From positions 5,544,501 to 5,608,500 of the forward strand of contig NZ_CP016616.1 in NCBI RefSeq assembly GCF_002741015.1: 64,000 nucleotides of DNA, read 5' to 3'. Each line of letters starts with the position of its first letter. Positions within the stretch are counted from its first letter, which is position 1. The notes beneath the pieces were generated by a model that was not told the origin of the DNA, did no database searches, and saw nothing but the letters and a program-made list of their open reading frames with translations. This stretch comes from Microvirga ossetica (lineage in GTDB: Bacteria > Pseudomonadota > Alphaproteobacteria > Rhizobiales > Beijerinckiaceae). Below are positions 2,682 to 64,000 of the stretch, piece by piece. A program made the position numbers and the translations under genes.

Positions 2682-2759
2682 CGCATGACCATCCCTTCGA
2701 CAATTGCGCGAAGGCGGATTGGAAATCCGATATCATGGAGCATGATCGGAGGGTGCGCG

Positions 2760-46637: not shown

Positions 46638-48983
46638 TTAGGCTGCTGCCCTGCCATTCAGACCCAATCGGACCCCGAGCGTGCGGTCCAACGCCGCCCT
46701 CAGCTCCAATACCGTCTCGGTCGCTAGTTCGGCCGGAGTCAGCCCGAGTATCTTCACTACGTCGACACGCGCCATGTGAACGAACCCGAGGAACTCGCGG
46801 TGGCGGGCGGATCCCGCGAGGACGGTCTCAATTGCGTCGAGGGTCCAAAGGACCGTCACCCAGCACTCGAGGAAGTCCACCGGCATTTCAGTGTATTCCT
46901 TCGCGATCATAAGCCGCGTGATCGGCGGCTTCTTCTTCCCACAGAAGAACGCCGCGATCACGCGAAGTGCCATCCTTGGCCAGCCATGCTCGTCTGTGGT
47001 CGCCTCGAGGCCGCGCGGCAGGCCTGGGTGCCGTGCCTTGTAGAGCAACATCGTCAGCCAGAACCTGACGCGTAGTACGTCGCTCGGCCCAAGCGGTTCC
47101 GTACCCTTGGCGATAATGGTTGCATACTGCTGGACCATTCGCACGAACTGCTTCGCGTCCACGGGCGTGTCATTCGGCCGTTGCTCAGGTGCCGGGACCT
47201 GCTCGGTCTCCGTCCGCTGCGCTTCGGCGTCGAGCTCGCGCTCTTCATCCTCGTCCGCCAGGTTCATCCAATCGTCGTTATCAACATCATCTGGATCACA
47301 AGGGTTTACCGACCTGCCCACGAGCATGTTCAGGAAGCTGCGGATGCTGTCCGAATGCGTCCCGGCCAGCGTCGAGTCGCGGCGGATTTCATCCCGCGAG
47401 TCGGGCGAACGAGTCTCCATGAACTCATCGTAAGTGAGCTGCTGCGGCGGCTCATCCTCCCCATCTGGATCGGAGTGCCGTGTACGGACTAGAGCTATGG
47501 ATGGAGGAGGGCGATCGTTGAGGTCGGCACGTGCAAGCTTGTCGAAGGCGTCATGCATCCAGAGATCTAAGTCTTCGCCAGCGTCGAACGCCGCAATGGC
47601 CTTCGCAACGGATCCCGTAGCGACCTCTCGCCGCCGCCTTCGAAGCAGCGACCGGTGCGCGACGTGAGCAGGATTCGACACGAATCCATCCTGTTCTACT
47701 ACTGCAAAGCTGATGTGTTCCGGTTTCTCAAAGGTCAGGCGGAAGGATCGGCGCGGCACGGATTCACCGGTGATCTGGAATGCGACCGTCTCGATCTCCG
47801 ATCCGCTGGCATCAAGGAGCCGCAACGACCCGCTTCCGCTAGTCCCGTCAGGCAGAGACCACGTGATCATGTCTCCGTCGAGTTCGAAGGAGCCGGCCTT
47901 GCGCGCCGCAATCTCGTCCAAAGGAATGGGCGGCGACGGTTCCCTCCGGTCGATCTCGGCGGGATCGATGGGCATGGCCTCGAGGCACTCGGAAAGCCCG
48001 AGCGCCTCGATTGCCCGATCGCGGGGGAGCATTCGGTAGATGCACGCCTCGGCATTTGCGCCACCGGAAGCGTCCCGGCCCAGAGCCGCGGTCGTGCAGT
48101 TGGCGCTTCCCACAAGCACGTGATCGTGGGTCGCCGTGGAGGCAATCACGAACTTCGCATGTTTGAAGCGACCCTTGAGGCTGGACGGGAATGCCCGGAA
48201 CTCTATGGCTGCCGGTCGCGGCGTCTCCAACGGAAACTCGTGCCCTTCGGCATCCAGCAGCACGGTCGTGCTGGCTGGCTGCATCCTCTTCATCAGGGTT
48301 CCGAGAGCCTCGAGTTGTCCATCCCAGTATGGGCTCGCGACGACCAGCCGTTCGACGACCTCGTCGCCGATGAGCCCGATGAATCGGCTTCCTATGCCTG
48401 CGCTACCGTCGCGCGCCAGGAACGCGATCGCAGTCCCATCGTCGAGGTACTGGAGAGGTGCGACCTCCTGGCCTACAAGCCATGGAGCCCGATCGGCCGC
48501 CCAGTTCAGAGCCTCGCGTGCGGTGCCCGGCTCCCTGGCCACGAGGTTGGAGACGTACTTCCATGCCGACCGCACGATCTCCCGCTCGGGGCTCGGCTCG
48601 TCATTGCACTCGAGTTCGACGACCGCCTCGGCGTTGCCGGCGAGTCCCGCCGCAGTGATGTTGGCGGAGCCGACGAAGAGCCTTCCCAACCGTCGACCGA
48701 TCTGGAGGACGATCTTGGGATGGAACAGGCCATCGGCGACGGGGGGCGAGAAAAGTTCGTAGTCGCGACCGAGCTGTGCGGGAAGCTGAGATCCGTCCGA
48801 CAACGACATCGAGGCCATGCGCTCGTCGGCTACTATGAGGAAATTCGTTGCTCCGCTCGCCATAAGCTGTGGCAGCATTACCTCCTCGTACGCGGCGAAC
48901 TCGATTGAGAATGTAGTTGTGACGGCGCTATGGAAAGGGCGCGATCCAGTGCCGCGGCGCGCCATGCGCTCGGGATATTTCAC
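46638..48983 (-). CDS. PLD-fold nuclease-like protein
   Basis: The 781-residue protein contains two phospholipase-D half-sites. The first is FHPKIVLQ (H88, K90) with FVGSANIT (105-108), and the second is KHAKFVIA (H275, K277) with VGSANCT (292-295). The usual distal Asp of HKD is replaced by the GSxN form seen in helicase-linked nuclease-type PLD proteins. The rest (~330-781) is an unrecognised middle and a C-terminal helical part with an acidic linker (DPDDVDNDDWMNLADEDEER). The ATG overlaps the stop of the preceding 503-residue gene by four bases. It is likely a nucleic-acid end-processing or cutting subunit of a defence module; no membrane segment is seen. Confidence 0.78.
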   Translation of the reverse strand: MKYPERMARRGTGSRPFHSAVTTTFSIEFAAYEEVMLPQLMASGATNFLIVADERMASMSLSDGSQLPAQLGRDYELFSPPVADGLFHPKIVLQIGRRLGRLFVGSANITAAGLAGNAEAVVELECNDEPSPEREIVRSAWKYVSNLVAREPGTAREALNWAADRAPWLVGQEVAPLQYLDDGTAIAFLARDGSAGIGSRFIGLIGDEVVERLVVASPYWDGQLEALGTLMKRMQPASTTVLLDAEGHEFPLETPRPAAIEFRAFPSSLKGRFKHAKFVIASTATHDHVLVGSANCTTAALGRDASGGANAEACIYRMLPRDRAIEALGLSECLEAMPIDPAEIDRREPSPPIPLDEIAARKAGSFELDGDMITWSLPDGTSGSGSLRLLDASGSEIETVAFQITGESVPRRSFRLTFEKPEHISFAVVEQDGFVSNPAHVAHRSLLRRRRREVATGSVAKAIAAFDAGEDLDLWMHDAFDKLARADLNDRPPPSIALVRTRHSDPDGEDEPPQQLTYDEFMETRSPDSRDEIRRDSTLAGTHSDSIRSFLNMLVGRSVNPCDPDDVDNDDWMNLADEDEERELDAEAQRTETEQVPAPEQRPNDTPVDAKQFVRMVQQYATIIAKGTEPLGPSDVLRVRFWLTMLLYKARHPGLPRGLEATTDEHGWPRMALRVIAAFFCGKKKPPITRLMIAKEYTEMPVDFLECWVTVLWTLDAIETVLAGSARHREFLGFVHMARVDVVKILGLTPAELATETVLELRAALDRTLGVRLGLNGRAAA

Positions 48984-50491
48984 GCGTTGGCTCCAAGAAT
49001 GGCGAGGCCGCGCGCGGTCGTTCCGTTTTCGTCGACGAGACCGACGTCGACCAGAAACTGCACCGCTGGGTTGAGCCGCGGCGTCGTGGGTACGGGTGCG
49101 TATCCGTTGCGGCGGACCAAGCGTCCGTCGCGCACTTCGAATAGGAACGTGTAGTCACGCTGTCGCCGAAGCTTCTGCATCGCGACCCAACTGTGCCTGC
49201 GGACGACGCGTTCGATGACGTAAGTGGCGACCAGATCGCCGACGCGGGTGTCCGACCGGCGTTCGATCCAAGCGAGTTCGGACACGATCGACCTGCCGCC
49301 GCCACGGACGCGTAACTCTCGCCGAGCGACCTCTCGCAGTTCCGCCCGTTGGATTATCCGCTGGTCCAGCGCGGCCATGAGGCGCACCGCATCCCAGGCC
49401 TTCTGCTCCGCTGTGCCACGCCGGCTCGTGAGCCTGGACCAGACGCTGCGGTAGTCGAAGATGTTCGGGTCAATGCCCTCACGAAGTTCTGACCACCGCA
49501 GATCTGCGTTCCCTGGCTCAACGGCACCTAGTCGGACCCGGACCTCCTCCACAATCTCTGCCAAGGTCCGGCCAGCATCAAATTCGGCCATGAGGTCAGT
49601 TGCCCACTCAAGGAGTGCCGCCGCCGCCACCTGAAGAAGATCCTGGCAGTGGTAGGCCTCCCAGCGCACGCGCTGGCCGTCCGGAACCTCGTCGTCGAGC
49701 GCCTGCGATTCGAAAAGATGCCAGCGAATTCCGTCTGGGTCCGGCCGTTGGCCAAATGTCTGCGCCGTCTTCAGGATGAGCCGCAGCGAGGCGGCCCTGC
49801 TGATATCGCTGTTCGTCGACCCGTCCGAGGGAAAGAGCAATCTTTCATAGATTTCCCGTTCGGACGAGACGTCGGGAATACCGGACGGCACGATCGGCGC
49901 GAGGCGCGCCAGATTATCGCGAGCGATCCGCGCCAACGCGATCGAATTGCTGAGAAGCTCCTCGACTTCTGGACCGATGGACGCGCGGAACGCATCGGCC
50001 GCGGCTTTGCCCGCCAAATTCGTCGCACGCGGAATGCCATGGTCGCCCTGACGGAATAGGCCCATTTCGACCATCTGCGAATAGTATGCGCCGCCGAAGA
50101 CGCCGAGTGACTGGCGCAGGTATCTCACGGCATTCCGATCATTCGAGGCGGCCTCGGCGAAGTCAATGACGTCCTCGTGCTGGTCCAATCGACGATCCGC
50201 CCATTCCACACCGCCAACCCCACCTTGACCCTTGGCGTGTGAAGACACGAGCGCATAGAGTGCTTCGGCACGGCGGACCCAAGAGCGCCAGGCAGCAAAC
50301 TCGTCCGTTGCGCCTAATAGCGCGTAGGCATCGCTCACCCAGCAGTAGTAACCGTAATACCGCATGCGCAGCGTGACATTGCTGATGCCTGGCAGCAACG
50401 ACTGGTACAGGGCAACACCAGCGTTCTGCATGCCGAGCGGGTCCAACCCACGCTTATCGGCGCGTTCGGTCCATTCAGGTTCAGCGCTCAC
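48980..50491 (-). CDS. unrecognised 503-residue partner of the PLD protein
   Basis: The protein starts at GTG 50491 with only a weak GGGA site. The N-terminus reads RGLDPLGMQNAGVALYQSLL then PGISNVTLRMRYYGYYCWVS, a motif set that I associate with PLD-linked defence proteins such as the DUF6361 type, but I cannot assign it to that family. The remainder is mostly helical and rich in Arg and Glu, with a C-terminal winged-helix-like stretch (ERVVRRHSWVAMQKLRRQRD, then LNPAVQFLVDVGLVDENG). No catalytic motif is visible. Overlap with the PLD gene implies a complex made in equal amounts. Confidence 0.68.
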   Translation of the reverse strand: MSAEPEWTERADKRGLDPLGMQNAGVALYQSLLPGISNVTLRMRYYGYYCWVSDAYALLGATDEFAAWRSWVRRAEALYALVSSHAKGQGGVGGVEWADRRLDQHEDVIDFAEAASNDRNAVRYLRQSLGVFGGAYYSQMVEMGLFRQGDHGIPRATNLAGKAAADAFRASIGPEVEELLSNSIALARIARDNLARLAPIVPSGIPDVSSEREIYERLLFPSDGSTNSDISRAASLRLILKTAQTFGQRPDPDGIRWHLFESQALDDEVPDGQRVRWEAYHCQDLLQVAAAALLEWATDLMAEFDAGRTLAEIVEEVRVRLGAVEPGNADLRWSELREGIDPNIFDYRSVWSRLTSRRGTAEQKAWDAVRLMAALDQRIIQRAELREVARRELRVRGGGRSIVSELAWIERRSDTRVGDLVATYVIERVVRRHSWVAMQKLRRQRDYTFLFEVRDGRLVRRNGYAPVPTTPRLNPAVQFLVDVGLVDENGTTARGLAILGANA

Positions 50492-50681: not shown

Positions 50682-52316
50682 TCAAGCTGCCCGGTGATCG
50701 ATCACATCCACGTTCGGACGGTTATCCCCGGCCAGGATGTTCGGCAGCTCCTGGATGAAGATCTCGCTGTGCCCCTCGATCAGGCCTTCCTTCTTCAGAC
50801 GCCAATCCCCGGTGGCAAGCTTCTCCGGCAACGGACGGTCAACGACCTCGTAGACGATCTGGATGTCGGCCGGGATCTTGTCGACGATGGCCAAGCGGTC
50901 GTTGCGCTTCAGGTTGGTAGCATCGAGCACGACGGTCTCGCCATCCGCAAGGCGACGGATGACCCTGCGCTCGACCTCCTTGAACACGTCCGTCTGGTCA
51001 CTGGTCTCGAGAGAGCCGTACTTCTCGATTCGGATGTCATCGCTCGAGACAATGCTGTCCTGGGAGTACCTGCGCTTCGCCAGAGTGGATTTGCCGGCAC
51101 CGCTTGGACCGACCATCAGGACGAGTTTCTGCCCGCAACGCGGCCAGTCCCATCCACGGGCCTCGCTCCTGTTCGAGCGGATCTCATCCCACTTTTCCGA
51201 GAGCTTGATGAGATGATCTGCCGGCACGACGTTGTGGTGGGCCACCGTGTTGCGGACGGCCGCCACGCTCTTCAGGAAGGTGGCCTCGAGTTTCGGGATG
51301 CGCTCGTTCAGCAGGTGGTAGAGGTGGCTCGCCTCAAGGTCACGCAAGGCATGGATGTGCTTAATGCCCTTCCTGGTCTCCACGGCATAGGGCAGGTCGG
51401 GTGCGAGGATGGCACCATACCGATCCGCGAAGAAGTCGATCACCTCGCCGACGAACGGTGTCAGGGCATGCGACTGGGCGAGCCAGATGCGCCGCTTGAG
51501 GGTTGGGTGCTCGATGGCAGGTCGACATGCCAGGGAGTGGATGAACGGAGACCCGTCCCATTCGTCGATCAGTCCGTTGCCCCACGTCGGATGCATGTCC
51601 AGTCCCGGAAGGTCCGACAGGAGGGCGATGGGATCCGCCAACTCCTCGGGATCCCTATGGGCAAGAAGGCGGATCATCTCACCATCCCATCCCGCCAGGC
51701 GGATGACCGTCTCGGCAGCCACGCGGTCCAGCAGACTTTCGCCCCCATCTTGGCGCATTAGCCTCGTGACGTACGTCCTCGTGTCGACCGGAGTGACGTA
51801 CGCCCTCCACTGCATCTCGTCCTTCCCGAACAGAAAGGACACGTCCGATCGTGGAAGATCCACAGGGAGCAGCACGATGAGCCGCGGGGAGAGGCGCTGG
51901 GCTGCATCCATCGATGCATCCGCACGCTGCGATGCGGCCGCGAAACTCCGAAGGAAGGCAGACCATCGGCCCCATGCGTCCCGATCAACCCCGTCGATGA
52001 GAAACGAGGCGGCCGACAGGCCGGGCAGGTCCGCGAACGCGGGAACGGAGTGGATGCTCGTGTCCCTGATGCCACCCGCGCGGGCGAGCCCGTGCGGGAT
52101 GGAGCGGTCGAAGGATCGGTCCTGCGCGTTGACGTGCACTACCCGTCCGCCGCCGCGCTCACGAGCCGCCTCCATGATGGCTTCCTTGAACCCTCGCGGC
52201 CGGGCGCTGGGCACGGTCACTCCAAGGATGCCCTTTGGAGACGACAGCATGCGCGAGGCGACCCTCTCGACGAAGTTGGCAGGTCCGGACAGGTTCCAGA
52301 AATCGGCGACCATCAC
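50682..52316 (-). CDS. HEPN-motif and polynucleotide-kinase-like P-loop protein
   Basis: The 544-residue protein has three parts. Residues ~1-290 begin FWNLSGPANFVERVASRML, text like the N-terminus of conflict-system ATPase partners, with no intact Walker A. Residues ~300-390 are helical and carry RNTVAHHN near residue 355, an R-x4-H motif with Asn after Arg, the signature of HEPN RNases (Swt1-like). Residues ~395-544 are a P-loop kinase: VLMVGPSGAGKSTLAKRRYS, SSDDIRIEKYG, then VVLDATNLKRNDRLAI, as in T4 polynucleotide kinase-type domains. The ATG overlaps the giant gene's stop by four bases. Cleaving RNA and phosphorylating ends would suit a toxic or repair effector; this is inference. Confidence 0.75.
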   Translation of the reverse strand: MMVADFWNLSGPANFVERVASRMLSSPKGILGVTVPSARPRGFKEAIMEAARERGGGRVVHVNAQDRSFDRSIPHGLARAGGIRDTSIHSVPAFADLPGLSAASFLIDGVDRDAWGRWSAFLRSFAAASQRADASMDAAQRLSPRLIVLLPVDLPRSDVSFLFGKDEMQWRAYVTPVDTRTYVTRLMRQDGGESLLDRVAAETVIRLAGWDGEMIRLLAHRDPEELADPIALLSDLPGLDMHPTWGNGLIDEWDGSPFIHSLACRPAIEHPTLKRRIWLAQSHALTPFVGEVIDFFADRYGAILAPDLPYAVETRKGIKHIHALRDLEASHLYHLLNERIPKLEATFLKSVAAVRNTVAHHNVVPADHLIKLSEKWDEIRSNRSEARGWDWPRCGQKLVLMVGPSGAGKSTLAKRRYSQDSIVSSDDIRIEKYGSLETSDQTDVFKEVERRVIRRLADGETVVLDATNLKRNDRLAIVDKIPADIQIVYEVVDRPLPEKLATGDWRLKKEGLIEGHSEIFIQELPNILAGDNRPNVDVIDHRAA

Positions 52317-55300
52317 GCTGCCTCCTGGATCTCGACCTCGAGGAGGCGACGGGCCAACGGGGCAAGGGTGTAAGACGCCTTGGACTCGTCATCGGGCTGA
52401 TGACCCGCAACGGGCTGGAATGCGCCGATGTTGATCCCGTAGTTGACGATGGCCTCCGCCGAGGCCCAACCGCCAGCGCCGGACCTGATCTCCGAGAAGG
52501 TCAGCGTGTCCGCAACGTCCTTCAGCGTGAACGAGGATCCGGTGTAGCTCGCGATCGAGCGGCAGATGTCCCCGAAGGAGCCATCGAGCCCGAGGCGCGC
52601 CAGGATGTCCTGCGCGCCCATCACATCCACGACGAGACGGTCGATCCGTCCCTGGAGCTTGTTGCCCCTTGCGCTACCCTTGTCGCTCCGTCCCTGATGC
52701 TTGTCGCCCCGGTCGGCATGGAACAGCCAGGACATCGGGGCATTCCAGCCGCCGCAGGCCTCGATCATGCGCTCACGAGCCGTCTGGTCAAGGGTCGGAT
52801 GGTTCTGGACGATCTCACTCTCGAGGAAGGCCGCGCTCCATGGCTCGAGCGGGATGACCTTGATGCCCGTGGGTCGCGTAAAGCGCGGGTCGTTGACGAA
52901 CCGTTCCAGGTGCTTGGGGCGGCCGACGAACACGACCTTGGCGAGGGAGTCGATGACCGCCCTGGCCCGCATCGTCTCGGCGACCCAGTCCGGCCCCCAA
53001 TCCGAGCGGGAGTCCACGACCACCACGACCGGGTTCTGGCGCTGCGCGCTCGTCCCCCTGATCCGGGTGAGGCGTTCCGAGAGATCCTGCTTGCCCGGGA
53101 ACGTCTGGGCGCTGACCTCGCACTTGTCGGCTTCCGAGAAGGAGTTCGCCGCGTTGCGCAACGACAGCGACACGAGGTCGATGTCGGCCACATTCGTCCC
53201 GAAGACGAGCTTCACCGGTGTCAGGTCGGTGAGGATGTCCCGCTCCTGACCAAGGGTGAGGGGCGACGACTGCCTGTGCTCGATGTTGTAGCCGATGGTC
53301 GGCTCCAGAGGGCGCCGCGCCGATTTCGGATCGAATTCGTCCAGTGGCTTGCGATCCCCGAACTCGAGGAGCTTGTCGTCGATCTCGTCCCGGTTGCCGA
53401 GCAGGCGCGTTACGGCCGTGGACCGGAGGGTCCAGCGGTTCGTCGGCGTCCTCCGGAGGATGCCGAGCCCCTCCATCTCGTCGACGAGGTCCTCGAACAG
53501 GGAGAACCTGTTCGGATCCACGAATCCCCTCGGCCAGAACGCGACCGCGGCATCCCTGATCTCGCGGACCGTCACGCCCTCGTCGATCTTGCCTTCCGCC
53601 TCGTTGCCGAGGACCAGATGGGCAACCACGTAAGCAAGCAGCTCGTACCGCTGGTCGATGCGCAGCGTCATCCTAAACTTCTCGCGGACCTCATCGCTGG
53701 CCTGGCGGCGCTCCAGCACCTCGGACACCAGGCTCCGGCTGATCGTCCTGACCTGATGGTTCGTGCGCTTGATCTCCTCGTTGACGATCTCGAGGAGGTG
53801 CTTGGCGTAGGTCTGCACCAGAACCGGGTAGTAGTTGGAATGGCTCAGGATGCGCCAGATGTCCTCACGGCGCTCGAACTCCATGCCCAACGCCGCGAAC
53901 GGACGCACCACGAGATCCTCGGCATCGCCCATCTCGTCTCCCATCAGCGGACCGATGCGCTGGGGATCGGACGAGATCTGCTTGAGCGGATCGTTGCCCG
54001 TCTGGACGAAGCGGGTGACGTTGTGCAGACCAGAGAGGATGAACTTGAAGCGCCGCCCCGTGTCCGTCATCAGCTTCTGGAGGGCGAAGAACTCCGTGTA
54101 ACCCTGCGCCGCGTCGGCTGTCACGAAATCGTCCGCCTCGTCGATGAGGAGGATAACGCGTCGGCGGGGAGCGACCTCGAGCCATCGCTGGATGGTCTCG
54201 ATCACACGCGCGGGCTCGGTCACACCCTGCTTGGTGAAGATCGTCGGCAGGTTCCTCGCGATCTCCTCCCAGATGCGCCGCGTCAGGTGCTGCTCGGGCC
54301 CCTGCGTTAGGGACTGGGCATCGACGAAGGCAACCAGGATCTCGCCCTTGGGGTCGTGCTTGGTCGCCTGGAGGTGCTTGAGAAGCGCGGTCTTGCCCAG
54401 GCGGCGCCCGCCGTAGACGATGCAGCTTCCGTGCGTATCGAACAGGGTCGCCAACTCCTTGCTCCGCCCGCGGAACATCTCGACGGGCACGCTTTCACGG
54501 CCCCAGTCGCGATAGGGTTCGGCATAGCTGAAGGGCTGCCCGAGCTCAAGCAGGGTGAGGGGGCGCATCTCGGGTTCCCCGAGCGCATACAGGATGCTCG
54601 CGGAGTCGACGAGGATGACCCGGCGCCGGGCTTGGAGGTTCTGGAGCATGAACTGCTGCCTGCGCTCCTTCGAGACGACGTCCCCGACGAACACGATCAC
54701 GCCCTTCTGGCCCGTATGGCAGATCTCCGTGAGCTGCGCGTCACCGGGCATGGTCGCCATGATGGCAACCCGCCAGTACTGATCGGTGAGGGAGCCGAAG
54801 TCCGGGAGGAGGAGCGACTCGGTATCGCGCAGCAGTGAGAAGTCGAAGTCGCCAACGAAGCGCTTCTGCTGCGCGTTGGTGAGGTTGCTGGGATCCCTCA
54901 GGTTGGCCCTAATGCCCAACCCTTCAAGGAAGTCGGTGACCTTGGCCGCATAGCCCTGATCGGTCTTCACGGTCTCGATCCGCCGGACGGTATCCCACCA
55001 CCGTCCGAAGATCACCGCGGCCTCGTCGCGGCGGGCAGGGGACAGTTCGTCGAAGCGGAGTCCGCAGAACTCGATGCCGTCGTTGATCGCTGAGGAAGCC
55101 CTGTCGTAGTAGGCCTTCCCGAGCTTGGTCATGGCAGGCAGGACGGTGGTCGAGAACTCCTCGAAGCGCCGGAGCCGGGAAGGAGGAGTGGGGATCTCCC
55201 CTGTCTTCTCGGCAAGGACGACGAACTCCTCTGCTGTGAGCAGGTCATCGCCGGCGCAAAGGGTGCGCAACCGCTGTGCATTGTGGGACGAGATCCGCCC

Positions 55301-58300
55301 CTCAAGCGCATCGACCCGTGCGAGGAGGCGGTTGCGGGGTTCGTCCATCAGCGCCCGGACCTCGTCCTCGGTCTCGGCGAGAAGGATCGAGGCGAGGCGG
55401 ATGTCGTCGATGCGTTCGCCGTCGATGGCCTCGTCACGCTCCTCCAGCGATGCCACCACCGGAACCTCGGCGGAGCCGATCCGGTCGATCTTCGAAAGTG
55501 CGGACAGGGCCTCGTCGGGTTTCAGGATCGATCCGTAGCGGATGACGCGCTCCACGAGGGAGCGGGCCCTGTCGATCTCCTGGGCGAGCTCCACGCGGGC
55601 CGCATCGAGGTCCGCCGAAAGGCTGTCGGAGAGGTTGTCCCGCATGGCCTCCGAGATGCCGTGGTGCTCCGCAAGCTCCACGAGAAGGCGAGCGCCCACG
55701 AAGGAGGTCTCGTCGATGCGTTGCCGGAACAGCCCCTCGTAGGCCCGGTCGCGCGCTTCCCCCTTCTCGGGCAGGAGCGGAACGCGGACCTGCTGGAGGA
55801 TGAGGCAGACCTCCCCCGCGTCGTAAGGCGCGGGATACCACGAGCGCCCGAAGTGGAAATCGGGCAGGAGGGGCAGCGATCCGTGCAGCTCAAGCATGTG
55901 ACCGTATGCGGGAGGGGTTGCAGCATCCCCCGCCAGAACCTTGTCCAGGCGGCGGTAGCGATCCACCACGTAGCGGGCCACGGAAGTGTAGGCCTCATCC
56001 TCTGCGAGACGGTCGAACGCCTCGCACGCGGCTGCCAGGTGACGGCGCAGGTCGGCGACCGCCTCCTTCAGCTTCGGCTGCTCGCTGGCGCTCACCAACG
56101 TGACGGCGTTCCTCCGGTCGATGTACTCCGCGCACCGTGCGCCGAGGTCGAGCAGCGAGCCGACGAGCTTGTCGCGAGCCGCTCCATCCAATCCCTTGTA
56201 CTTCGAATTGACCGCCAGCTCCGCCCTGTAGAGCATGTCCAGGATCTGGGATCGAGTCGAGCACTCGTTGACGTAGCGCCTCGCCGCCGCCAGGGCAGCG
56301 GCATCGTCCGCCTTCATGGCATCGCGAAGGTCGCCCACTTCCTTGCCGGGCTGGAGGAGGGCAGTCCGGATCTTGGCGCCGAGCTGGTAGCTGAACTGGG
56401 TCCGTGACAGAAGGTCGACCCTCGAGATGATCTCCTTGCGGCATGTCTCGGCATCGCTCTCGGCCTCCATGGTGTTCGAGATGTGATGGAGGACGGCGGG
56501 AGAGAACGGCAAGCGCGAGCGGGCGAAGCGCTGGACGCTCTCGGAGAGTGCACGGGTCTCCTCCCGAACGGGTTCGACGAGCCCGTTCAACGACCTCAGG
56601 ACCTCTCCGGCGCCCGCATCCGAGTGGAAAAGCGTCAGCTCCAACGCGGACGGATACATGAGCATGCGGCGGATGGAGCCCGCAATCTCGTCGGACGGCG
56701 GCATCTCCTCGATGGAGGCGAGCGCCTTCACCACGGCATCCTGGACCACCATCGGGGTCGCATGGAGGCTCGCATGGTTGACGTTCCCGGCCATGGCGGC
56801 GAAGCGGAGTTCCTCCGGCGTCATGTCGAGGGAGGATCCCGCATGCAGGCTGCCGGCCGCTTCCACGAGATGATAGGCAAGCCCCAGCTCGTGCGATGCC
56901 ACGAACTCCCAGATCTTTTCGTTGACCCTGGCGACCTCAGGGTCTTCCTCGACGATCTCGGGCTCGACTTCCGCCTCCGGCTCCCCGCCGTCCGAGGCAT
57001 CCGAAAGGACGCGTAGGTCATCCTCGTCGATCGTGATTTCGTCCTCGTCGGTGACGAGCACGGCTGGGGCCTCCGCCGCTTCCGCCTCGAACGTTGCCGC
57101 TACGGGGACCTCTGCCTCGGTGACGGGTTCCTGCCGTGGCGGGACCGTGACCTCCTCGGCGACTGGGTTAGCCTCTCCCTCGATGTCGGACTTCTCGGCC
57201 TCGCCCACCGACGGAAGTTCGACCTGAGGAGACACCTCGGTGTTGTTGCGGGCCGCCCAGAAAGCCTCCTCACGATCCTCCTCGACCTCTTCGGCCACGT
57301 CGGAGGTTTCATTGTGCGCAACCTTAGGCGTCTCCTCAGGCACAGGCAGCACTTCGGCGGCCAGCAGGGTCGTGACCTCGTCGAAGCCTTCGTATGCGGT
57401 CTCGAAATGCCCGAGCAACATCTCGGATTCCCGCTCCATTTCCTGGTTGAGCTGAGCCCTCTGGAGGAGCTTCGCGCTGGCCAGCTTTTCCTGGATCCCG
57501 TTGACCCTCTCACGATCGGCGTCCGTATCGCACAGGGCGGACTCCGTCCTGCCGAGACTTACCTCGATCTGGTCGGCGCTCTCCATGGAGAGGTCCGTCG
57601 GTGACGGAACGTCGGGAAGGGTGCGTTCGAGTCCGATGTACTCGACGAGCCCGACGAGGCTGCGGCGAGCCTCGATGGCACGCTCGCGGTACGGCTCGGC
57701 ATCGACCCGCCGGGGACGCGCTGCCTCGTATGCTACGACGGAGGCCGAAACGACCGTGAGGATGTGTCTGAGCCTGTCCACGATGTCCGGCGACGGGTCG
57801 TCGTTGCCGTGCTGCCTGACGAGAGCATCGAGGTCGCCGAATGCCTTCCTGAAGGATGCACGCGCCTCCTCCATTCCTCCTGAGATCGAGACCACGCCCT
57901 GACGTCCTTCATCCAGCTTTCCGTTGGACGTCGAGGAACGGTCTTCGGTCTCCATGGAAAGCACCTCGTCTGTTGAATGGGTCTCGGTCGAAGGGATCCC
58001 CTCGGACAGGTCGGACACTTCCGGGAAGCCTGCGTCCCCATCGGCATCGGTCGTCCGGATCGAGTCCCGGCGTGCGGTCTGCGCCAGTTCCTCGGACGCA
58101 GCCTCGGCGAGTTCCTTGATCAGCGGGTCGTCCTGCTGCGTCAGCCAGGCCTTTTGGGCGCGGCGGCTCCTCAGGAAGTCGGCCACGTCCCCGAAGCCTG
58201 GCTCGTCCGCAATGGCCGGAAGCAGGTTCTCGTCGAGCAGCTCGGAGCCTCGCAGGACGCAGAAGTCGCGGGCGAGATCGGTCTGCTTGTCGATCAACAG

Positions 58301-61300
58301 GCACTCGAGCACGTGCAGGTCAGTGAGGGTGCCGACATCGTCGGTTCCCGTCCGTTCCTTGACCGTGTCGAGCATCCCCCTGAGAACGCCGTCGACCTTC
58401 CGGTAGAAGGGACGGAAGATGCTCCGGTCGCGGGGACTGGTTCCGTCCTTCGACACTACGATGCTGGCCACCGCCGTGTGGAGGAAGGGATACTCGAACC
58501 CCTTGAGAAGGAGGTCGATGATAGCGTCTCCCTCTGGCCTTGCCTGGGGCCAGAACTTGGCGTTCCGGGCGTGCTTCCGGAGCGTTTCCCGCCCTAGGTG
58601 GAGCTGGCTCTTGACCGCTCCCGAGAGGCTGATCTTGTCCTTGAGCCAGATGCGGTCGAGGAAAGCGGGGATGACGATGGTGGGCGCGGCATCGCCTTCA
58701 AGGGACTCGTCATCGATGCCTTCGAACCAGTTGGCCGGCTCTCCCCTTTCGAGATTCCCTTTCTCCGCCGACAGTTCGCCACTGGATGGCTCGCCTTCCA
58801 AGACCTCGCCATCGGGCCCGACCCGGGTGAATTGCCCGCTATACTCGGCGGCACCGGTGTCCTGTTCAAATGCGATCAGCCTCAAGATGTATGGAAGCAG
58901 GTCGGCGACGGGTTGCCCGATTTTCACCACGGCTTCGATGAATTCCCGGTTGGCATGCCCGCCATGGATGGACTCGATCAGGATGAAGGACCGCAGTTCG
59001 TCCCACTTCTCCATCTTGGCCAGTGCCTTGATGGTCTCGAGGGGGCCGACGGGTGCCTGCATCGTCCTGTAGGGGCCCTTCTTCTGGCGGATCATCGCAT
59101 GGACTGCATCGTACCAGCGGTGGAAGATCCCTCGGACTCCCAGCTTGGGCTTGGCCTTGCGGGACTTCCCGTACAGGGCACCGATGCCGGGCACGATCCG
59201 GAAGAGATCAGAGACGACCTCGTAGAATTCCTCCTCGGTCGGCGGCCGATCCTTGGGCCAGAGATAGAACGGGGCGGTGATGATCACCTCCCGCCACAGG
59301 GGATCCAGTTTGCGCAGGAAGGCCGGGCTCACGGTGACGTGCTGCTTCACCCATTCCGGCGTGACGAAATCGGGCACGACGTCGACATAGAATCGACGGA
59401 CCATCTCTTCCCGTTCGGGATAGCGCTCGACGAAGCGCTGGAGCCTGTCACTCAGCGGGCCCTCCGCGCGGTTCGACAAGCCCTTGGTGTTGATCGAGGT
59501 CGGTGGCGTGGGCGGGAGCACGATGGATGCAGTCATGGCTCGGTTGGCGTGTTGGAAGATGACTGGGGGAAGGACAGCGGAGCCATCCTCGGTCGACGGC
59601 GCCGGGAGGGCCTTCTCGGCTTCCCCTTCGGACTGATCGGACAGCGACGGCACGGACTCGGCATCGTCTGGCTCGGGATCGTCCTCGTCGAGGACGAACG
59701 ACGGGACGTAGTCCCTGAGCTTCGTCTCGAAGAACAGCGGGGCGGGGAGGGATGTCGACGATGCTGTATGGCCGTATCCGCTCCGCAGCTTGGTCACGAG
59801 CGAGGCGATGGCATCGGGATCGTCGGTGCCGTGGCAGTGCATGACGGCAATGTCGATGGGTCCGGCGATCTTGTAGAATTCCTCCTTGAGCGAGCGGACC
59901 TGCTCGATATGGAGGCCTTCCTTTCCCTTGAGTGCGGCAGGCATCTCGGCCTTCGCGGGAAGCTTGTAGGGATAGGCGAGATCCCGGTAGACGCTCAGTC
60001 CCTTGGCGATCTTCTGCTTGCCGTCGTTTGTCCCCATCGAGAGATAGAAGGGGTGGGGCACCCCGCCCATCCGGAACGTCGACACGATGGTGGTCGGCGC
60101 ATACCGCACGACCTCCTCGAGCGTCCGTCCACTGTCGGCATCGAGACGTGCGAGCTTGCGCACCTTCCTGACGATCACCCGCGGAGCCACGTCGGTGCGG
60201 ATCCTGACGAGGCGGGCGCCCATCCAGTCGGAGGCGGGATCCAGGGAACGGCCGAGGAGGTCGAAGCTGCGGCCGATGTCCTTGTCCCTCAGGGCAGGCC
60301 ACAGCCCGCTCGCCGAGGTCGCGTCGAACAGGACGAGCGGACGCTGGCCGCGCTCGCATGCCCCGCCGATTACGTGGTTCACGAACCTCTGGTATGTGTC
60401 CCTGCGGGCATCCTCATTGTCCCCGAGATTGGGCGTGACCCAAGCAGCGGCCTCACGGAGGGACTCGAACAGCGGCCTCTCCTCCGTCCATTGGGCAACG
60501 CCGTTCAGCCGCCGTCCGAGGATCGCGGTCGTGCGGCCCGTCGCGACGTCGACGCTGGTCGCCATCAGAAGCTGGCTCGACTTCGTTCCCGCCCTGCTCC
60601 GGGACTTGCTGATCACGGAGATGCCGATAATCGACTTCGGACGGGTATCGGCCTTCGGAAAGGCGGATGCGACCGGGGTCTGGATCTCGGACACGAGCCC
60701 TGCATGCCCGAACAGCAGGTCGAGCAGGGCCGCCTGGACGCGGAAGAGATAGTCCTGGAAGCGCTTGGCCGACGGCTCGGGCGGGCGGAGGTACTGGACG
60801 TTCGCGTTCGCGCCGCGGGCGAGGGCAATGCGCCCGGCAGGCTTGTTCACGCGGTCGTCGGGTCGCTTCCCGCCGGGATCGCCTTCCGTGGCCGGCACGG
60901 TGTACCAATCGGTGGCCTGGACGAGGACGTGACAACCGTCCTTTTCCGAGAGCACGTCGGCGAGTGGCTTCCATGCCTCGATCCTGGCGGCATACCGCTC
61001 TGCGTTGCTGCCGTCGCCCGCGGGAAGCCGTTTCTGCGCACCATGCACATTAGGCAAGCGATGCGAGATCACGTCCACGGACTTCCCGAACAGGGCCCCG
61101 ATGATGCGCTCGAGCACGGTGCGCTCGCTCTGGGACGGAGCGATGACCACCACGGTGGGCTTGTCGTTGCCGAACGTCCTGCGGATGCGATCCCGGTTGG
61201 TCGCCTGCAATTCCTGGAGAGTGGTGAGCGCCTTGTTCACTCCGGTCGCATCGAGGTTGGCGGGCGGCTCGCCATCCACGAGCAGCGCCCATGCTTCCGC

Positions 61301-62569
61301 CAGCGACTTGTCGTCCAGCTCGTTCAGGCCGTGGGATGCCGCGACCCATCCGAGGACGGACTGGAGCTTCAGGGCGACGTGCTGGTCTTCGATCCGCTTG
61401 ATGGTGGTGTCGTTCTGCGTCACCGGGACGGGCTGGAAGACATCGGACACCCGCTCGGAGACGGCATCGAACAGGTCGAGCAGGTCGCGCTCCGTGACGC
61501 CGGAGCCGACCGAGGTCTCGAGCGAGTATCCATTGTGATAGGGAATTCCCACGAAGGCGGTCTTCTGCGCTCCCTTCTCCACGAGCTCGGCAAAGCCCGA
61601 GCTGAGGTCGAGCCTCGCCCCGAAGGCCTGCATCACGAAGGCCGGGTCGACGGGCTCGACGATCTCGCCCTTGCGCAACCCGCAATCGAAGCGGACGGAG
61701 ACGTCCCTGTCCTTCGCCATGATGATGCCGCCGAGGCGCGTCTGGCGGCGCAGGTCGGACGCATCGGGCACGCGGCGGCACCACCGCCTGCGGGTCGCCT
61801 CGACCCTGACGATGGGATTGTCGGAACCCGGTACCGTCTCGACGGCAAACGTCGCCACCATCGACCATTGATCCTCGCCCATGGCGTGAGGCCAGGTCTC
61901 GAAGGAGATCTCGTTCGACCGGGTCGCGGAGCGGACGATGCGCTTCACGGGGCCTAGACCCTCGAAAAGCTCGATGCCCGTGAGCCTGCGGGCGAGCAGC
62001 GCATGGATGGCGTCGTGGGCGCGGACGAAGGCTCCGGCGTCGGAACCGATCGATGCGGCGATGTCGATGGCACGCTTCTCCTGGACGAGAAGGCCTCCGT
62101 CGTTGGCCAGGTCGCGGATGTCGTCGAGCAGGGCCTCGCTGACCCCGACGTTCTCGCTCCAAGGTGCCAGGACGTTGTCGACCCAGAGCTTCGTCGCGCG
62201 GGTCGCCGCCTTGACCGCCTTGTCCGTCCCGTCGTCGATGACGTCCAGGAAGTACGCTGGCCCTTCGGCGTCGCGATTGCGCCCGATCCGTCCGAGATCG
62301 GAGGAGACGAGAACTGCATCGGTCACGGCCGCGGCGATGGCCGCACGCAGCGCCGCGTAGGGAAGGGCTCCTGCCTCGGGCTTCCTCGATGCCTTGGCGG
62401 ACGAGGCGATGGCCCTGAACAGGTCCTCGGCCTGTCCGCTCCATCCCATCCTGATGCCGTGAACCTCCTCAGACGCTCCCGGGATCGGCCGTAACGCCAT
62501 TGCCACGTTGGCCGTCTTCGGCTGAGCCTTGCCAGAGAGGGGCAGAAGATAGGATGGTCCGTCAGTCAT
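52313..62569 (-). CDS. pPIWI-RE module fused to a STAND-like ATPase (3418 residues)
   Basis: One continuous frame. Residues ~440-640 resemble the MID-like pPIWI_RE part (PTVVVIAPSQSERTVLERII, HVLVQATDWYTVPAT, NKPAGRIALARGANANVQYL). Residues ~645-955 read as the RNase H-fold PIWI part (IGISVISKSRSRAGTKSSQL, RPLVLFDATSASGLWPALRD at ~748, ARLVRIRTDVAPR, IDIAVMHCHGTDDPDAIASL, LPAPLFFETKLRDYVPSF). The named Arg is present; the position of the named Glu (in an LEI-type strand) appears to be Asp here. Acidic linkers follow (~955-990 and ~1756-1878). A segment at ~2580-2690 leads to an ATPase with Walker A YGGRRLGKTALL (~2720) and Walker B RVILLIDEADDF (~2805). The last ~350 residues resemble a degenerate second NTPase. 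Domain names are from memory of motifs. Confidence 0.75.
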   Translation of the reverse strand: MTDGPSYLLPLSGKAQPKTANVAMALRPIPGASEEVHGIRMGWSGQAEDLFRAIASSAKASRKPEAGALPYAALRAAIAAAVTDAVLVSSDLGRIGRNRDAEGPAYFLDVIDDGTDKAVKAATRATKLWVDNVLAPWSENVGVSEALLDDIRDLANDGGLLVQEKRAIDIAASIGSDAGAFVRAHDAIHALLARRLTGIELFEGLGPVKRIVRSATRSNEISFETWPHAMGEDQWSMVATFAVETVPGSDNPIVRVEATRRRWCRRVPDASDLRRQTRLGGIIMAKDRDVSVRFDCGLRKGEIVEPVDPAFVMQAFGARLDLSSGFAELVEKGAQKTAFVGIPYHNGYSLETSVGSGVTERDLLDLFDAVSERVSDVFQPVPVTQNDTTIKRIEDQHVALKLQSVLGWVAASHGLNELDDKSLAEAWALLVDGEPPANLDATGVNKALTTLQELQATNRDRIRRTFGNDKPTVVVIAPSQSERTVLERIIGALFGKSVDVISHRLPNVHGAQKRLPAGDGSNAERYAARIEAWKPLADVLSEKDGCHVLVQATDWYTVPATEGDPGGKRPDDRVNKPAGRIALARGANANVQYLRPPEPSAKRFQDYLFRVQAALLDLLFGHAGLVSEIQTPVASAFPKADTRPKSIIGISVISKSRSRAGTKSSQLLMATSVDVATGRTTAILGRRLNGVAQWTEERPLFESLREAAAWVTPNLGDNEDARRDTYQRFVNHVIGGACERGQRPLVLFDATSASGLWPALRDKDIGRSFDLLGRSLDPASDWMGARLVRIRTDVAPRVIVRKVRKLARLDADSGRTLEEVVRYAPTTIVSTFRMGGVPHPFYLSMGTNDGKQKIAKGLSVYRDLAYPYKLPAKAEMPAALKGKEGLHIEQVRSLKEEFYKIAGPIDIAVMHCHGTDDPDAIASLVTKLRSGYGHTASSTSLPAPLFFETKLRDYVPSFVLDEDDPEPDDAESVPSLSDQSEGEAEKALPAPSTEDGSAVLPPVIFQHANRAMTASIVLPPTPPTSINTKGLSNRAEGPLSDRLQRFVERYPEREEMVRRFYVDVVPDFVTPEWVKQHVTVSPAFLRKLDPLWREVIITAPFYLWPKDRPPTEEEFYEVVSDLFRIVPGIGALYGKSRKAKPKLGVRGIFHRWYDAVHAMIRQKKGPYRTMQAPVGPLETIKALAKMEKWDELRSFILIESIHGGHANREFIEAVVKIGQPVADLLPYILRLIAFEQDTGAAEYSGQFTRVGPDGEVLEGEPSSGELSAEKGNLERGEPANWFEGIDDESLEGDAAPTIVIPAFLDRIWLKDKISLSGAVKSQLHLGRETLRKHARNAKFWPQARPEGDAIIDLLLKGFEYPFLHTAVASIVVSKDGTSPRDRSIFRPFYRKVDGVLRGMLDTVKERTGTDDVGTLTDLHVLECLLIDKQTDLARDFCVLRGSELLDENLLPAIADEPGFGDVADFLRSRRAQKAWLTQQDDPLIKELAEAASEELAQTARRDSIRTTDADGDAGFPEVSDLSEGIPSTETHSTDEVLSMETEDRSSTSNGKLDEGRQGVVSISGGMEEARASFRKAFGDLDALVRQHGNDDPSPDIVDRLRHILTVVSASVVAYEAARPRRVDAEPYRERAIEARRSLVGLVEYIGLERTLPDVPSPTDLSMESADQIEVSLGRTESALCDTDADRERVNGIQEKLASAKLLQRAQLNQEMERESEMLLGHFETAYEGFDEVTTLLAAEVLPVPEETPKVAHNETSDVAEEVEEDREEAFWAARNNTEVSPQVELPSVGEAEKSDIEGEANPVAEEVTVPPRQEPVTEAEVPVAATFEAEAAEAPAVLVTDEDEITIDEDDLRVLSDASDGGEPEAEVEPEIVEEDPEVARVNEKIWEFVASHELGLAYHLVEAAGSLHAGSSLDMTPEELRFAAMAGNVNHASLHATPMVVQDAVVKALASIEEMPPSDEIAGSIRRMLMYPSALELTLFHSDAGAGEVLRSLNGLVEPVREETRALSESVQRFARSRLPFSPAVLHHISNTMEAESDAETCRKEIISRVDLLSRTQFSYQLGAKIRTALLQPGKEVGDLRDAMKADDAAALAAARRYVNECSTRSQILDMLYRAELAVNSKYKGLDGAARDKLVGSLLDLGARCAEYIDRRNAVTLVSASEQPKLKEAVADLRRHLAAACEAFDRLAEDEAYTSVARYVVDRYRRLDKVLAGDAATPPAYGHMLELHGSLPLLPDFHFGRSWYPAPYDAGEVCLILQQVRVPLLPEKGEARDRAYEGLFRQRIDETSFVGARLLVELAEHHGISEAMRDNLSDSLSADLDAARVELAQEIDRARSLVERVIRYGSILKPDEALSALSKIDRIGSAEVPVVASLEERDEAIDGERIDDIRLASILLAETEDEVRALMDEPRNRLLARVDALEGRISSHNAQRLRTLCAGDDLLTAEEFVVLAEKTGEIPTPPSRLRRFEEFSTTVLPAMTKLGKAYYDRASSAINDGIEFCGLRFDELSPARRDEAAVIFGRWWDTVRRIETVKTDQGYAAKVTDFLEGLGIRANLRDPSNLTNAQQKRFVGDFDFSLLRDTESLLLPDFGSLTDQYWRVAIMATMPGDAQLTEICHTGQKGVIVFVGDVVSKERRQQFMLQNLQARRRVILVDSASILYALGEPEMRPLTLLELGQPFSYAEPYRDWGRESVPVEMFRGRSKELATLFDTHGSCIVYGGRRLGKTALLKHLQATKHDPKGEILVAFVDAQSLTQGPEQHLTRRIWEEIARNLPTIFTKQGVTEPARVIETIQRWLEVAPRRRVILLIDEADDFVTADAAQGYTEFFALQKLMTDTGRRFKFILSGLHNVTRFVQTGNDPLKQISSDPQRIGPLMGDEMGDAEDLVVRPFAALGMEFERREDIWRILSHSNYYPVLVQTYAKHLLEIVNEEIKRTNHQVRTISRSLVSEVLERRQASDEVREKFRMTLRIDQRYELLAYVVAHLVLGNEAEGKIDEGVTVREIRDAAVAFWPRGFVDPNRFSLFEDLVDEMEGLGILRRTPTNRWTLRSTAVTRLLGNRDEIDDKLLEFGDRKPLDEFDPKSARRPLEPTIGYNIEHRQSSPLTLGQERDILTDLTPVKLVFGTNVADIDLVSLSLRNAANSFSEADKCEVSAQTFPGKQDLSERLTRIRGTSAQRQNPVVVVVDSRSDWGPDWVAETMRARAVIDSLAKVVFVGRPKHLERFVNDPRFTRPTGIKVIPLEPWSAAFLESEIVQNHPTLDQTARERMIEACGGWNAPMSWLFHADRGDKHQGRSDKGSARGNKLQGRIDRLVVDVMGAQDILARLGLDGSFGDICRSIASYTGSSFTLKDVADTLTFSEIRSGAGGWASAEAIVNYGINIGAFQPVAGHQPDDESKASYTLAPLARRLLEVEIQEAA

Positions 62570-64000
62570 CTTGCCTCGCGTCGTAGAACCTGATGCCTTC
62601 CACGCGGCTCAAGGGGCCGTAGAAGGGTGAATAGAGTGCGCCGTAGACCTCGCGGACGACCGGGTCGGGGTCGGTGACCCTCTTGCGCAGGATGTCCCTC
62701 ATCATCACGATGAAGCTCGTCTGGGGCTTGTCAGGCTCGTTCCCGCCCGTCGCGGCCGCGACGTTGGCCCATGCGCCGTCGACGAAAATCGCCCTGGCCT
62801 TGCAGCCGTTGCGCATCGCGCGGCCGATGGTTTGCAGGATGTCGATCATGATGTCGGCGACGAACGGCTCGAGGAGGTCGCCGAGCAGGCTGGCCTTCAC
62901 CGAATGGCGCATCAGCCTGCGCACCCGCTCGAGGGATGCCTGACGCTCCCGCCGCCATGCCAGCGAGATGTCGCGGATGCCCATGTCGGCGGGGAACTCC
63001 CGGAGGTCGAAGTCCATGCTGTCGCGTCCGGCGAGCCCTGCCACGAAATCGTAGCTCTCGGCGGCCGGATGAGGCCGGGTCAGGAAGACGACGGTCGAGA
63101 TGGCGGCCTTGTTGAACAGAGGCGTGCCGGCATGCGCCTCGCCCCCGAAGACGATGTTCACGCCGCGGGCGATCGCCTTCATCGGGAAGACGATCGCATC
63201 CCAGTCGTCACGGGCGCCGATGGACTCGACCTGCGCCGTGGTGACGTAGTCGCCGTCATGGTCGGCCGGAATCTCGTCCACCACCCCGATCACGCGGCGT
63301 GCGATCCCGTCGCGGACGCGGGCGATGTGCCGCTTGACCAGCTTGACCTGCTCGTAACCGTTCACGACGAATGCGACCTTGCGGCCCGGGTCGAAGTCGC
63401 GGGTCAGCGCCAGCACCCGCGGATCGTCGCCCATGAAGAAGTGCTCGACCATCTTCTCGAGGATCCTGCCCCTCTGCGAAAGGGGCGCGCCCGAGAACCG
63501 GAGCATACGGCGGGGATCCTCGGGATCGGGGATCGGCTGGAAGAGGAACACGCTGTCTCGCCACGCGGCTTCGGCGCCTGCACGGCGCAGGACGTAGTGC
63601 GGACCGACCGGGATGTGGAAGGACGGGCTCTCGGCGAGGAACGACGTGGCGCTCGTCAGGAGGACGTTCGGACCGCGCTCGAAACCGTCGTGCCTCAGCA
63701 GCTCGTGCATGCGGTACAGCAGGGTGCGCGGAGCGCCCCGGAACGTGAGGTAGCTGACGGCGAGGCTCGTCCGCCCGGCATCGGTCTGGAAGCGGAAGCG
63801 GATGCCGGAGAGGCGTCCGATCAGGGCCTCGGGCACGAGCCGGGCGAAGTCCTCGCTGATGCCCTGCTGGAACAGAGGTGAGGTGTGGATGCCCTCGGCG
63901 ACCATGGCGTGCTGGGCCGGCACGATGGCCAGGAACTGCATCACCACGGTCGTGACGTTGACCAGGAACCGGAAGATCTCGTTCGTCTTCTCGGGCCCGA
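62562..64000 (-). CDS. SF2 helicase, C-terminal part (5' end beyond the window)
   Basis: The frame stays open to the right edge, reading GPEKTNEIFRFLVNVTTVVM before the first internal ATG, so the gene is truncated by the window. The visible 478 residues contain motif III as LLTSATSFLAE, motif V as PMKAIARGVNIVFGG and motif VI as ILQTIGRAMRNGCKARAIFV, an SF2 C-terminal core that best fits the DinG/XPD-like type. The remaining C-terminal text (RDILRKRVTDPDPVVREVYG) is unrecognised. The stop overlaps the giant gene's ATG by eight bases, so the two proteins are coupled. In known pPIWI-RE islands a DinG-type helicase is the standard partner, which supports the assignment. Confidence 0.78.
   Translation of the reverse strand, partial: GPEKTNEIFRFLVNVTTVVMQFLAIVPAQHAMVAEGIHTSPLFQQGISEDFARLVPEALIGRLSGIRFRFQTDAGRTSLAVSYLTFRGAPRTLLYRMHELLRHDGFERGPNVLLTSATSFLAESPSFHIPVGPHYVLRRAGAEAAWRDSVFLFQPIPDPEDPRRMLRFSGAPLSQRGRILEKMVEHFFMGDDPRVLALTRDFDPGRKVAFVVNGYEQVKLVKRHIARVRDGIARRVIGVVDEIPADHDGDYVTTAQVESIGARDDWDAIVFPMKAIARGVNIVFGGEAHAGTPLFNKAAISTVVFLTRPHPAAESYDFVAGLAGRDSMDFDLREFPADMGIRDISLAWRRERQASLERVRRLMRHSVKASLLGDLLEPFVADIMIDILQTIGRAMRNGCKARAIFVDGAWANVAAATGGNEPDKPQTSFIVMMRDILRKRVTDPDPVVREVYGALYSPFYGPLSRVEGIRFYDARQDD

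Follow-up and report, generated by a model that had tools for sequence, protein, structure and literature searches.

The stretch of Microvirga ossetica DNA analysed here (64,000 nucleotides; contig NZ_CP016616.1, positions 5,544,501 to 5,608,500 of the forward strand; hereafter the window) contains one very long gene in which a pPIWI-RE module and a predicted ATPase are joined in a single polypeptide, and this raises the question what a predicted guide-binding protein might do with an ATPase of its own. Based on the gene, its operon and its relatives in other genomes, we propose, with a probability of roughly 55%, that the fusion is a target-directed sensor which switches on the other enzymes of the operon, namely a restriction endonuclease (REase), a DinG-type helicase and a likely HEPN RNase with a kinase domain. 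The fusion gene comprises the following features:

52313..62569, minus strand: pPIWI-RE::ATPase fusion gene, a single open reading frame with Pfam and PADLOC domain matches and 18 further proteins carrying both halves
61403..62467, minus strand: pPIWI_RE_X domain, residues 35-389 (PF13111, E 4.3e-13)
60686..61084, minus strand: MID domain, residues 496-628, with a predicted pocket for the guide 5' end (PF18157, MID_pPIWI_RE, E 1.1e-12)
59702..60631, minus strand: RNase H-like PIWI-RE domain, residues 647-956 (PF13032, RNaseH_pPIWI_RE, E 1.1e-26)
54866..59662, minus strand: middle region, residues 970-2568 (composition; DSSP of the model)
53345..54520, minus strand: predicted STAND/ORC-class ATPase and winged-helix region, residues about 2684-3075 (PF13401; model and fold matches)
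54389-54412, minus strand: Walker A of the ATPase, GGRRLGKT
54131-54151, minus strand: Walker B of the ATPase, LLIDEAD

The frame runs from an ATG at 62569 to a stop codon at 52313 and comprises 3418 codons with no internal stop. Its GC content by codon position is even, the third position ranging from 0.78 to 0.89 in all 12 blocks of at most 300 codons. That the fusion is an artefact of sequencing or annotation, or that adjoining genes were read through by chance, might be suspected from the Azospirillum ramasamyi homologue, which is annotated as two pieces; however, these pieces share one frame and are separated by a single in-frame stop codon (L006:17218-17220) that breaks the fusion, and 18 other proteins carry both halves. 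Near-full-length relatives (P0002-P0005; 81, 70, 38 and 36% identity) together with relatives located at two loci in named genomes rule out chance read-through, and in view of the homologues the probability of an artefact is negligible. The pPIWI RNaseH domain and the ATPase half occur together in at least 19 of at least 37 proteins that the full-length query retrieved (window protein included), a lower bound because only 2549 candidates of similar length were scored; some of these proteins come from named isolates (Microvirga, Azospirillum, Bradyrhizobium) that are open to study. Solved structures related to the fusion were found neither at E 0.1 in a sequence search nor at E 0.01 in a profile search.

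An earlier sequence-only reading of the window had proposed one 3418-residue protein with pPIWI-RE and ATPase parts, which is confirmed by the single frame, the Pfam and PADLOC matches and the homologues. The motifs it named were located at residues 747-760 (LFDATSASGLWPAL), 788-792 (VRIRT) and 941-954 (LPAPL...RDY); the helix it gave as DDPDALA lies at 916-922 and differs in one letter (DDPDAIA). Its Walker pair is complete, with GGRRLGKT at 2720-2727 and LLIDEAD at 2807-2813, and the profile comparison it suggested, with pPIWI-RE and AAA profiles, matched all three pPIWI-RE domains and AAA_22, so that the profile part of its refuting condition, the lack of any pPIWI-RE match, did not come about.

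The X, MID and RNaseH_pPIWI_RE matches all exceed the curated Pfam cut-offs (3/3), and the PADLOC profile PprPIWI matches residues 24-969 (E 1.3e-51). Within the MID domain, residues H509, R525, R529 and W533 are identical across 14 aligned fused proteins. The first catalytic position of the RNase H-like domain, whose placement at S651 follows the fold and does not draw on an alignment with the active PIWI-RE of P. stutzeri, is occupied by Ser in 16 of the 18 fused rows, by Gln in one, by Ala in one and by Asp in none; the Asp at the 749 column is kept in 18/18. The first Asp is also absent in two well-aligning ordinary triads, and R789 of the VRxR motif, a candidate for the Arg of the absolutely conserved Arg-Glu pair in the family's beta extension, is conserved in 21 aligned rows. 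As the presumed first catalytic Asp is replaced, the PIWI-RE module of the fusion is likely non-catalytic and probably does not cut. Both active and inactive versions of the family are described in the accessible part of Burroughs et al. (2013; PMC3702460).

The composition of the fusion indicates acidic linkers at about residues 961-1000, 1501-1560 and 1741-1880, and the modelled portion of the middle region (2240-2568) is mainly helical. Within the ATPase, AAA_22 (PF13401) matches residues 2712-2851 (E 7.1e-9), and the domain carries FRGRSKE in addition to the two Walker motifs, whose G, K and D, E are identical in 28/28 aligned ATPase rows. In the model (445-836), the fold matches ATPases of the STAND/ORC/NLR clade, and the domain is predicted to belong to the STAND/ORC class.

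The remaining genes of the operon and its surroundings are:

62562..64000, minus strand: C-terminal part of a DinG-type helicase with Z domain (PprDinG E 9.9e-165; pPIWI_RE_Z E 8.5e-6)
50682..52316, minus strand: partner gene, 544 residues, overlapping the end of the fusion, with a homologue behind the fusion in 7/7 islands
51153..51590, minus strand: HEPN-like region of the partner, residues 243-388, with R355-x4-H360 at 51237-51254
50685..51137, minus strand: polynucleotide 5'-kinase domain of the partner, residues 394-544
L002:3978 to 4973 or about 5065, outside the window: REase gene, found by tblastn with the Microvirga VF16 protein as an open frame, 85% identical
L002:5176-6036, outside the window: WYL regulator, divergent

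The DinG gene (L002:562-3978) extends past the window edge to window-equivalent position 65978; it overlaps the fusion by 8 nucleotides, and the fusion overlaps the partner by 4. In the VF16 REase protein, both the REase and the Y domain of pPIWI_RE islands are present. Hence, the triad of REase, DinG and pPIWI-RE is complete in the window genome, and the idea that the REase is missing and replaced by a PLD gene was rejected once tblastn had revealed the open REase frame. With the REase and most of DinG lying beyond the window edge, the sequence-only reading had overlooked the complete triad, and it had also passed over the partner with its R-x4-H motif and polynucleotide 5'-kinase domain. Its view of the fusion as a whole stands in part: both halves are there, but the ATPase, which it regarded as a separate gene of the described three-gene islands, is no gene of that triad. 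The ATPase is an addition to the described triad. The accessible part of Burroughs et al. (2013; PMC3702460) describes three-gene islands with the same order and overlapping genes, REase with Y, DinG with Z and pPIWI-RE (X-MID-RNaseH); here, in contrast, pPIWI-RE is longer by about 2450 residues, which include an ATPase, and the island also has a HEPN-like/kinase gene and a WYL regulator. That part of the source mentions a rare zincin fusion of pPIWI-RE and no ATPase fusion.

Pnkp-type polynucleotide 5'-kinases are marked by a P-loop and a catalytic D and R. The C-terminal domain of the partner is predicted to have the Pnkp kinase fold with all three and is closest to CthPnkp, in a comparison that left out Grc3. 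For the preceding region, E328, R355 and H360 are present in 35/35 aligned partners and the R-x4-H motif is invariant. This alignment consisted of 48 matches minus P0041 (the query), P0042, P0070, P0071 (pieces of 331-349 residues, as is P0042) and P0074-P0088 (which match the kinase only), plus five loci. HEPN RNases are characterized by Rx4-6H, typically with a polar residue after the R, and by a second conserved acidic residue in many families (PMC3710099, accessible part); R355-x4-H360 and E328 of the partner agree with this pattern. The profile HEPN_Swt1 matches five of seven cut-out partner regions (best E 0.0027). A comparison of the partner with PDB profiles gave 8y75, a CRISPR-associated protein, with a whole-chain E of 0.0043; taken alone, the best stretch, located at RNSVAH of the partner, has an E of 3.8. 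The partner model is confident and mainly helical at residues 271-381, with the R-x4-H motif at a helix end. Overall, the partner is likely an RNase of the HEPN type that also carries a predicted 5'-kinase domain. Inspected for an eroded STAND module, as in nSTAND2 systems, the core of the model shows an alpha/beta topology without Walker A; the suggestion that the N-terminal domain is a copy of the fusion ATPase was abandoned, as the profile comparison was empty (probability 0.1%). Also dropped was a partner match in genome G590 (E 1.7e-4), with no other island module nearby at E 1e-3.

Seven fused islands were read (window genome, Microvirga VF16, M. splendida, Azospirillum oryzae, A. ramasamyi, Bradyrhizobium elkanii and G931), and in all of them the complete triad and the partner occur in the order REase, DinG, PIWI::ATPase, partner. 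Neither ATPase nor partner was found in the stretches read around the canonical triads of Tolypothrix and Cupriavidus; the loci read leave out, among others, most plasmid records of Streptomyces, Cupriavidus and Sinorhizobium that match the ATPase or PIWI half, and repeats of B. elkanii. A further locus, in G1312, has divergent REase and DinG genes and PF13032 matches, and the PIWI profile built here gave no match there at E 1e-5.

The ATPase also occurs on its own. Eight such loci were read (Agrobacterium, Bosea, Salinibacter, Methylocystis, Streptomyces, Thiodictyon, Brasilonema and G1516); REase, DinG or PIWI was found in none of the eight stretches, and in five the partner lies directly behind the ATPase, showing that ATPase and partner exist without the triad. 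Genome G1516 is called Methylobacterium-type here: its ATPase shares 79% identity with P0014 and 61% with P0008 and P0009, which bear the name Methylobacterium, and its partner shares 85% with a protein named Methylorubrum populi. Over the 20 kb read, its locus contains the WYL regulator, the ATPase and the partner but lacks REase, DinG and PIWI; a search of the genome for PF13032, run without a positive control, gave no match. As to known defence profiles, the best PADLOC match among three stand-alone ATPases had an E of 0.00088, four compared with NCBIfam gave no match with E < 0.05, and a search of viral contigs with the Methylobacterium ATPase found none. In a tree of 49 ATPase domains, 23/24 fused rows fall into one branch (Shimodaira-Hasegawa-like approximate likelihood ratio test, SH-aLRT, 95), which also holds the Methylobacterium group, Agrobacterium, Bosea and five other rows. 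The fused or stand-alone label requires at least seven changes on this quick tree, in which long branches are flagged and some 'stand-alone' rows are known as proteins only. Behind the stand-alone ATPase and partner of the Agrobacterium plasmid lie ThiF-type and patatin-like genes (L010:16491-22767), and a PLD/SNF2 helicase, perhaps an alternative effector, lies behind the stand-alone ATPase of Brasilonema (L017:15301-18585).

The state of the kinase differs between the two settings: P-loop, Asp and Arg are intact in 7/7 fused islands versus 0/5 stand-alone ATPase-partner pairs. The domain is absent in Salinibacter, Thiodictyon and Methylocystis, Asp and Arg are lost in Agrobacterium, and the P-loop is lost in G1516. 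Among all aligned partners it is intact in 28 of 35, with the neighbouring gene on hand for a minority of the 28. Of 13 partner loci read, 12 are concordant for intact kinase and triad (both in seven, neither in five, one exception), and for this reason the most likely place of the kinase is on the guide side of the system.

In the proposed sensor mechanism, the PIWI-RE module would bind a guide and, with DinG, recognise an invader R-loop or DNA-RNA hybrid, probably without cutting. Target binding would then free the ATPase for ATP-dependent oligomerisation, as STAND ATPases do, and the oligomer would activate the HEPN RNase of the partner, resulting in dormancy or abortive infection, with the REase attacking DNA. 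The kinase may phosphorylate the 5'-OH ends arising from HEPN cleavage and, as its pattern of retention suggests, may also help to produce guides with a 5'-phosphate. This sequence of sensor, ATPase and HEPN, the mechanism favoured here, parallels inactive long-B prokaryotic Argonautes (pAgos) and two-gene nSTAND2 systems, as far as the accessible parts of their descriptions go (PMC10620215; PMC8195603).

A number of observations weigh against the sensor reading. The ATPase fold also matches the DNA loaders ORC, TnsC and MuB, so that a STAND switch is not the only way to read it. The ATPase might instead be a loader or matchmaker that polymerises on DNA at the PIWI-RE target and delivers DinG and REase for cutting, leaving the HEPN-kinase as a side module, which we regard as rather unlikely. 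The HEPN region of the window partner scores 13.4 bits against a Pfam cut-off of 27.5, fold-search matches of the whole partner cover the kinase only, and three of the eight stand-alone ATPase loci (Bosea, Streptomyces and Brasilonema) show no HEPN partner. The link between kinase and PIWI comes down to three independent pairs (sign test p 0.25) and is thus a lead only. The one discordant locus is the following:

L029:12863-15641, Bradyrhizobium sp. 186 plasmid: remnant in which a 374-residue gene, corresponding to the C-terminal end of the ATPase, is followed by the partner, with recombinases nearby

This remnant, which may be a recent truncation, keeps the intact kinase (P-loop, Asp, Arg) and the HEPN motif without the triad. 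It bears on two further readings of the partner. HEPN cleavage produces 5'-OH and cyclic phosphate ends, and kinases of the Pnkp type are known from RNA repair; the HEPN-kinase could thus be a killing device without any guide role, in which HEPN cuts tRNA or mRNA and the phosphates added by the kinase block RtcB-type rejoining. The retention of both domains in L029 fits this possibility, which we consider less likely than not. A killing device should have a kinase in every setting where the HEPN partner is active, yet all five stand-alone pairs have lost the domain or its catalytic residues or P-loop, and all seven fused islands have it intact. Conversely, the partner might be a dedicated guide maker: HEPN would cut RNA, the kinase would add the 5'-phosphate, the fragments would load into the MID pocket, and the ATPase would couple loading or target finding to more cutting in a self-amplifying loop. 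Consistent with this, loci that no longer have the PIWI triad (Methylobacterium type, Agrobacterium) keep the HEPN motif but have a decayed kinase; already unlikely, the guide-maker scheme became slightly more so with the intact kinase of L029.

Finally, the sensor reading presumes a role in defence, and the literature covered gave no proof that any pPIWI-RE island acts in this way. The P. stutzeri PIWI-RE, a member of the same family, is a catalytically active nuclease linked to replication stress, its knockout is more sensitive to ciprofloxacin, and the accessible part of the source mentions no ATPase half (PMC10991935). Accordingly, the island could be a housekeeping or replication-stress system. 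Such a role appears improbable given the patchy spread of PF13032, which was found in 3/48 genomes of the genus, 2/397 of the order, 2/385 of the class and 3/398 of the phylum samples (window genome included in each; one of the three phylum matches below cut-off), the 14 plasmid records that match the PIWI half, the adjoining WYL regulator and the other defence-like genes nearby.

With regard to novelty, the parts are of known kinds, and the weld of PIWI-RE and ATPase with its accompanying kinase looks new. Among the titles and abstracts listed by a literature search, which mostly did not cover subscription papers and bioRxiv preprints, none described a pPIWI-RE/ATPase fusion. The predicted catalytic pairing in the partner resembles that of Las1 and Grc3, which act jointly as HEPN RNase and polynucleotide 5'-kinase in eukaryotic rRNA processing; here, however, both activities are predicted in one chain, in a bacterial PIWI operon. 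That Las1 carries HEPN is stated in the accessible part of PMC3710099. The nSTAND2 two-gene systems likewise combine an active STAND-type ATPase with a second protein able to carry HEPN, as in HEPN fused to an inactive STAND beside the active one; compared by description only, they differ in that no kinase domain or PIWI-RE fusion is mentioned in the part of the source available (PMC8195603). Long-B pAgo systems such as BPAN also couple an inactive Argonaute-like sensor to a toxic effector, but belong to another PIWI family and have nuclease, Sir2 or membrane effectors, with no STAND ATPase or HEPN-kinase named in the accessible text (PMC10620215). If the sensor reading is true, two immune logics, guide-binding recognition and a STAND switch, would reside in one polypeptide. 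The 5'-kinase, joined to a likely RNase, is retained alongside the PIWI module and has mostly disappeared where that module is absent, a pattern that also offers a test of how prokaryotic Argonaute-like guides are made.

Several further genes lie elsewhere in the window or near the island. Behind the partner, a 503-residue protein and a 781-residue PLD-domain protein (ZacB/DrmC-like) are encoded at window positions 46638-50491; M. splendida has the same pair following its partner gene (L004:22013-25860; 90% and 87% identical), but in VF16 the pair is not annotated at that place. At 8214-14198 of the window, a large 1994-residue defence-type protein matches the PADLOC candidate PDC-S37 and Hhe. 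Upstream of the island, a 1360-residue UvrD-type helicase (L002:14712-18794) matches GajB profiles with a best E of 2.1e-27, and the nucleotide cyclase domain of a 1106-residue protein at window positions 43034-46354, which also has SAM, AAA and TPR domains, matches Pycsar cyclase profiles.
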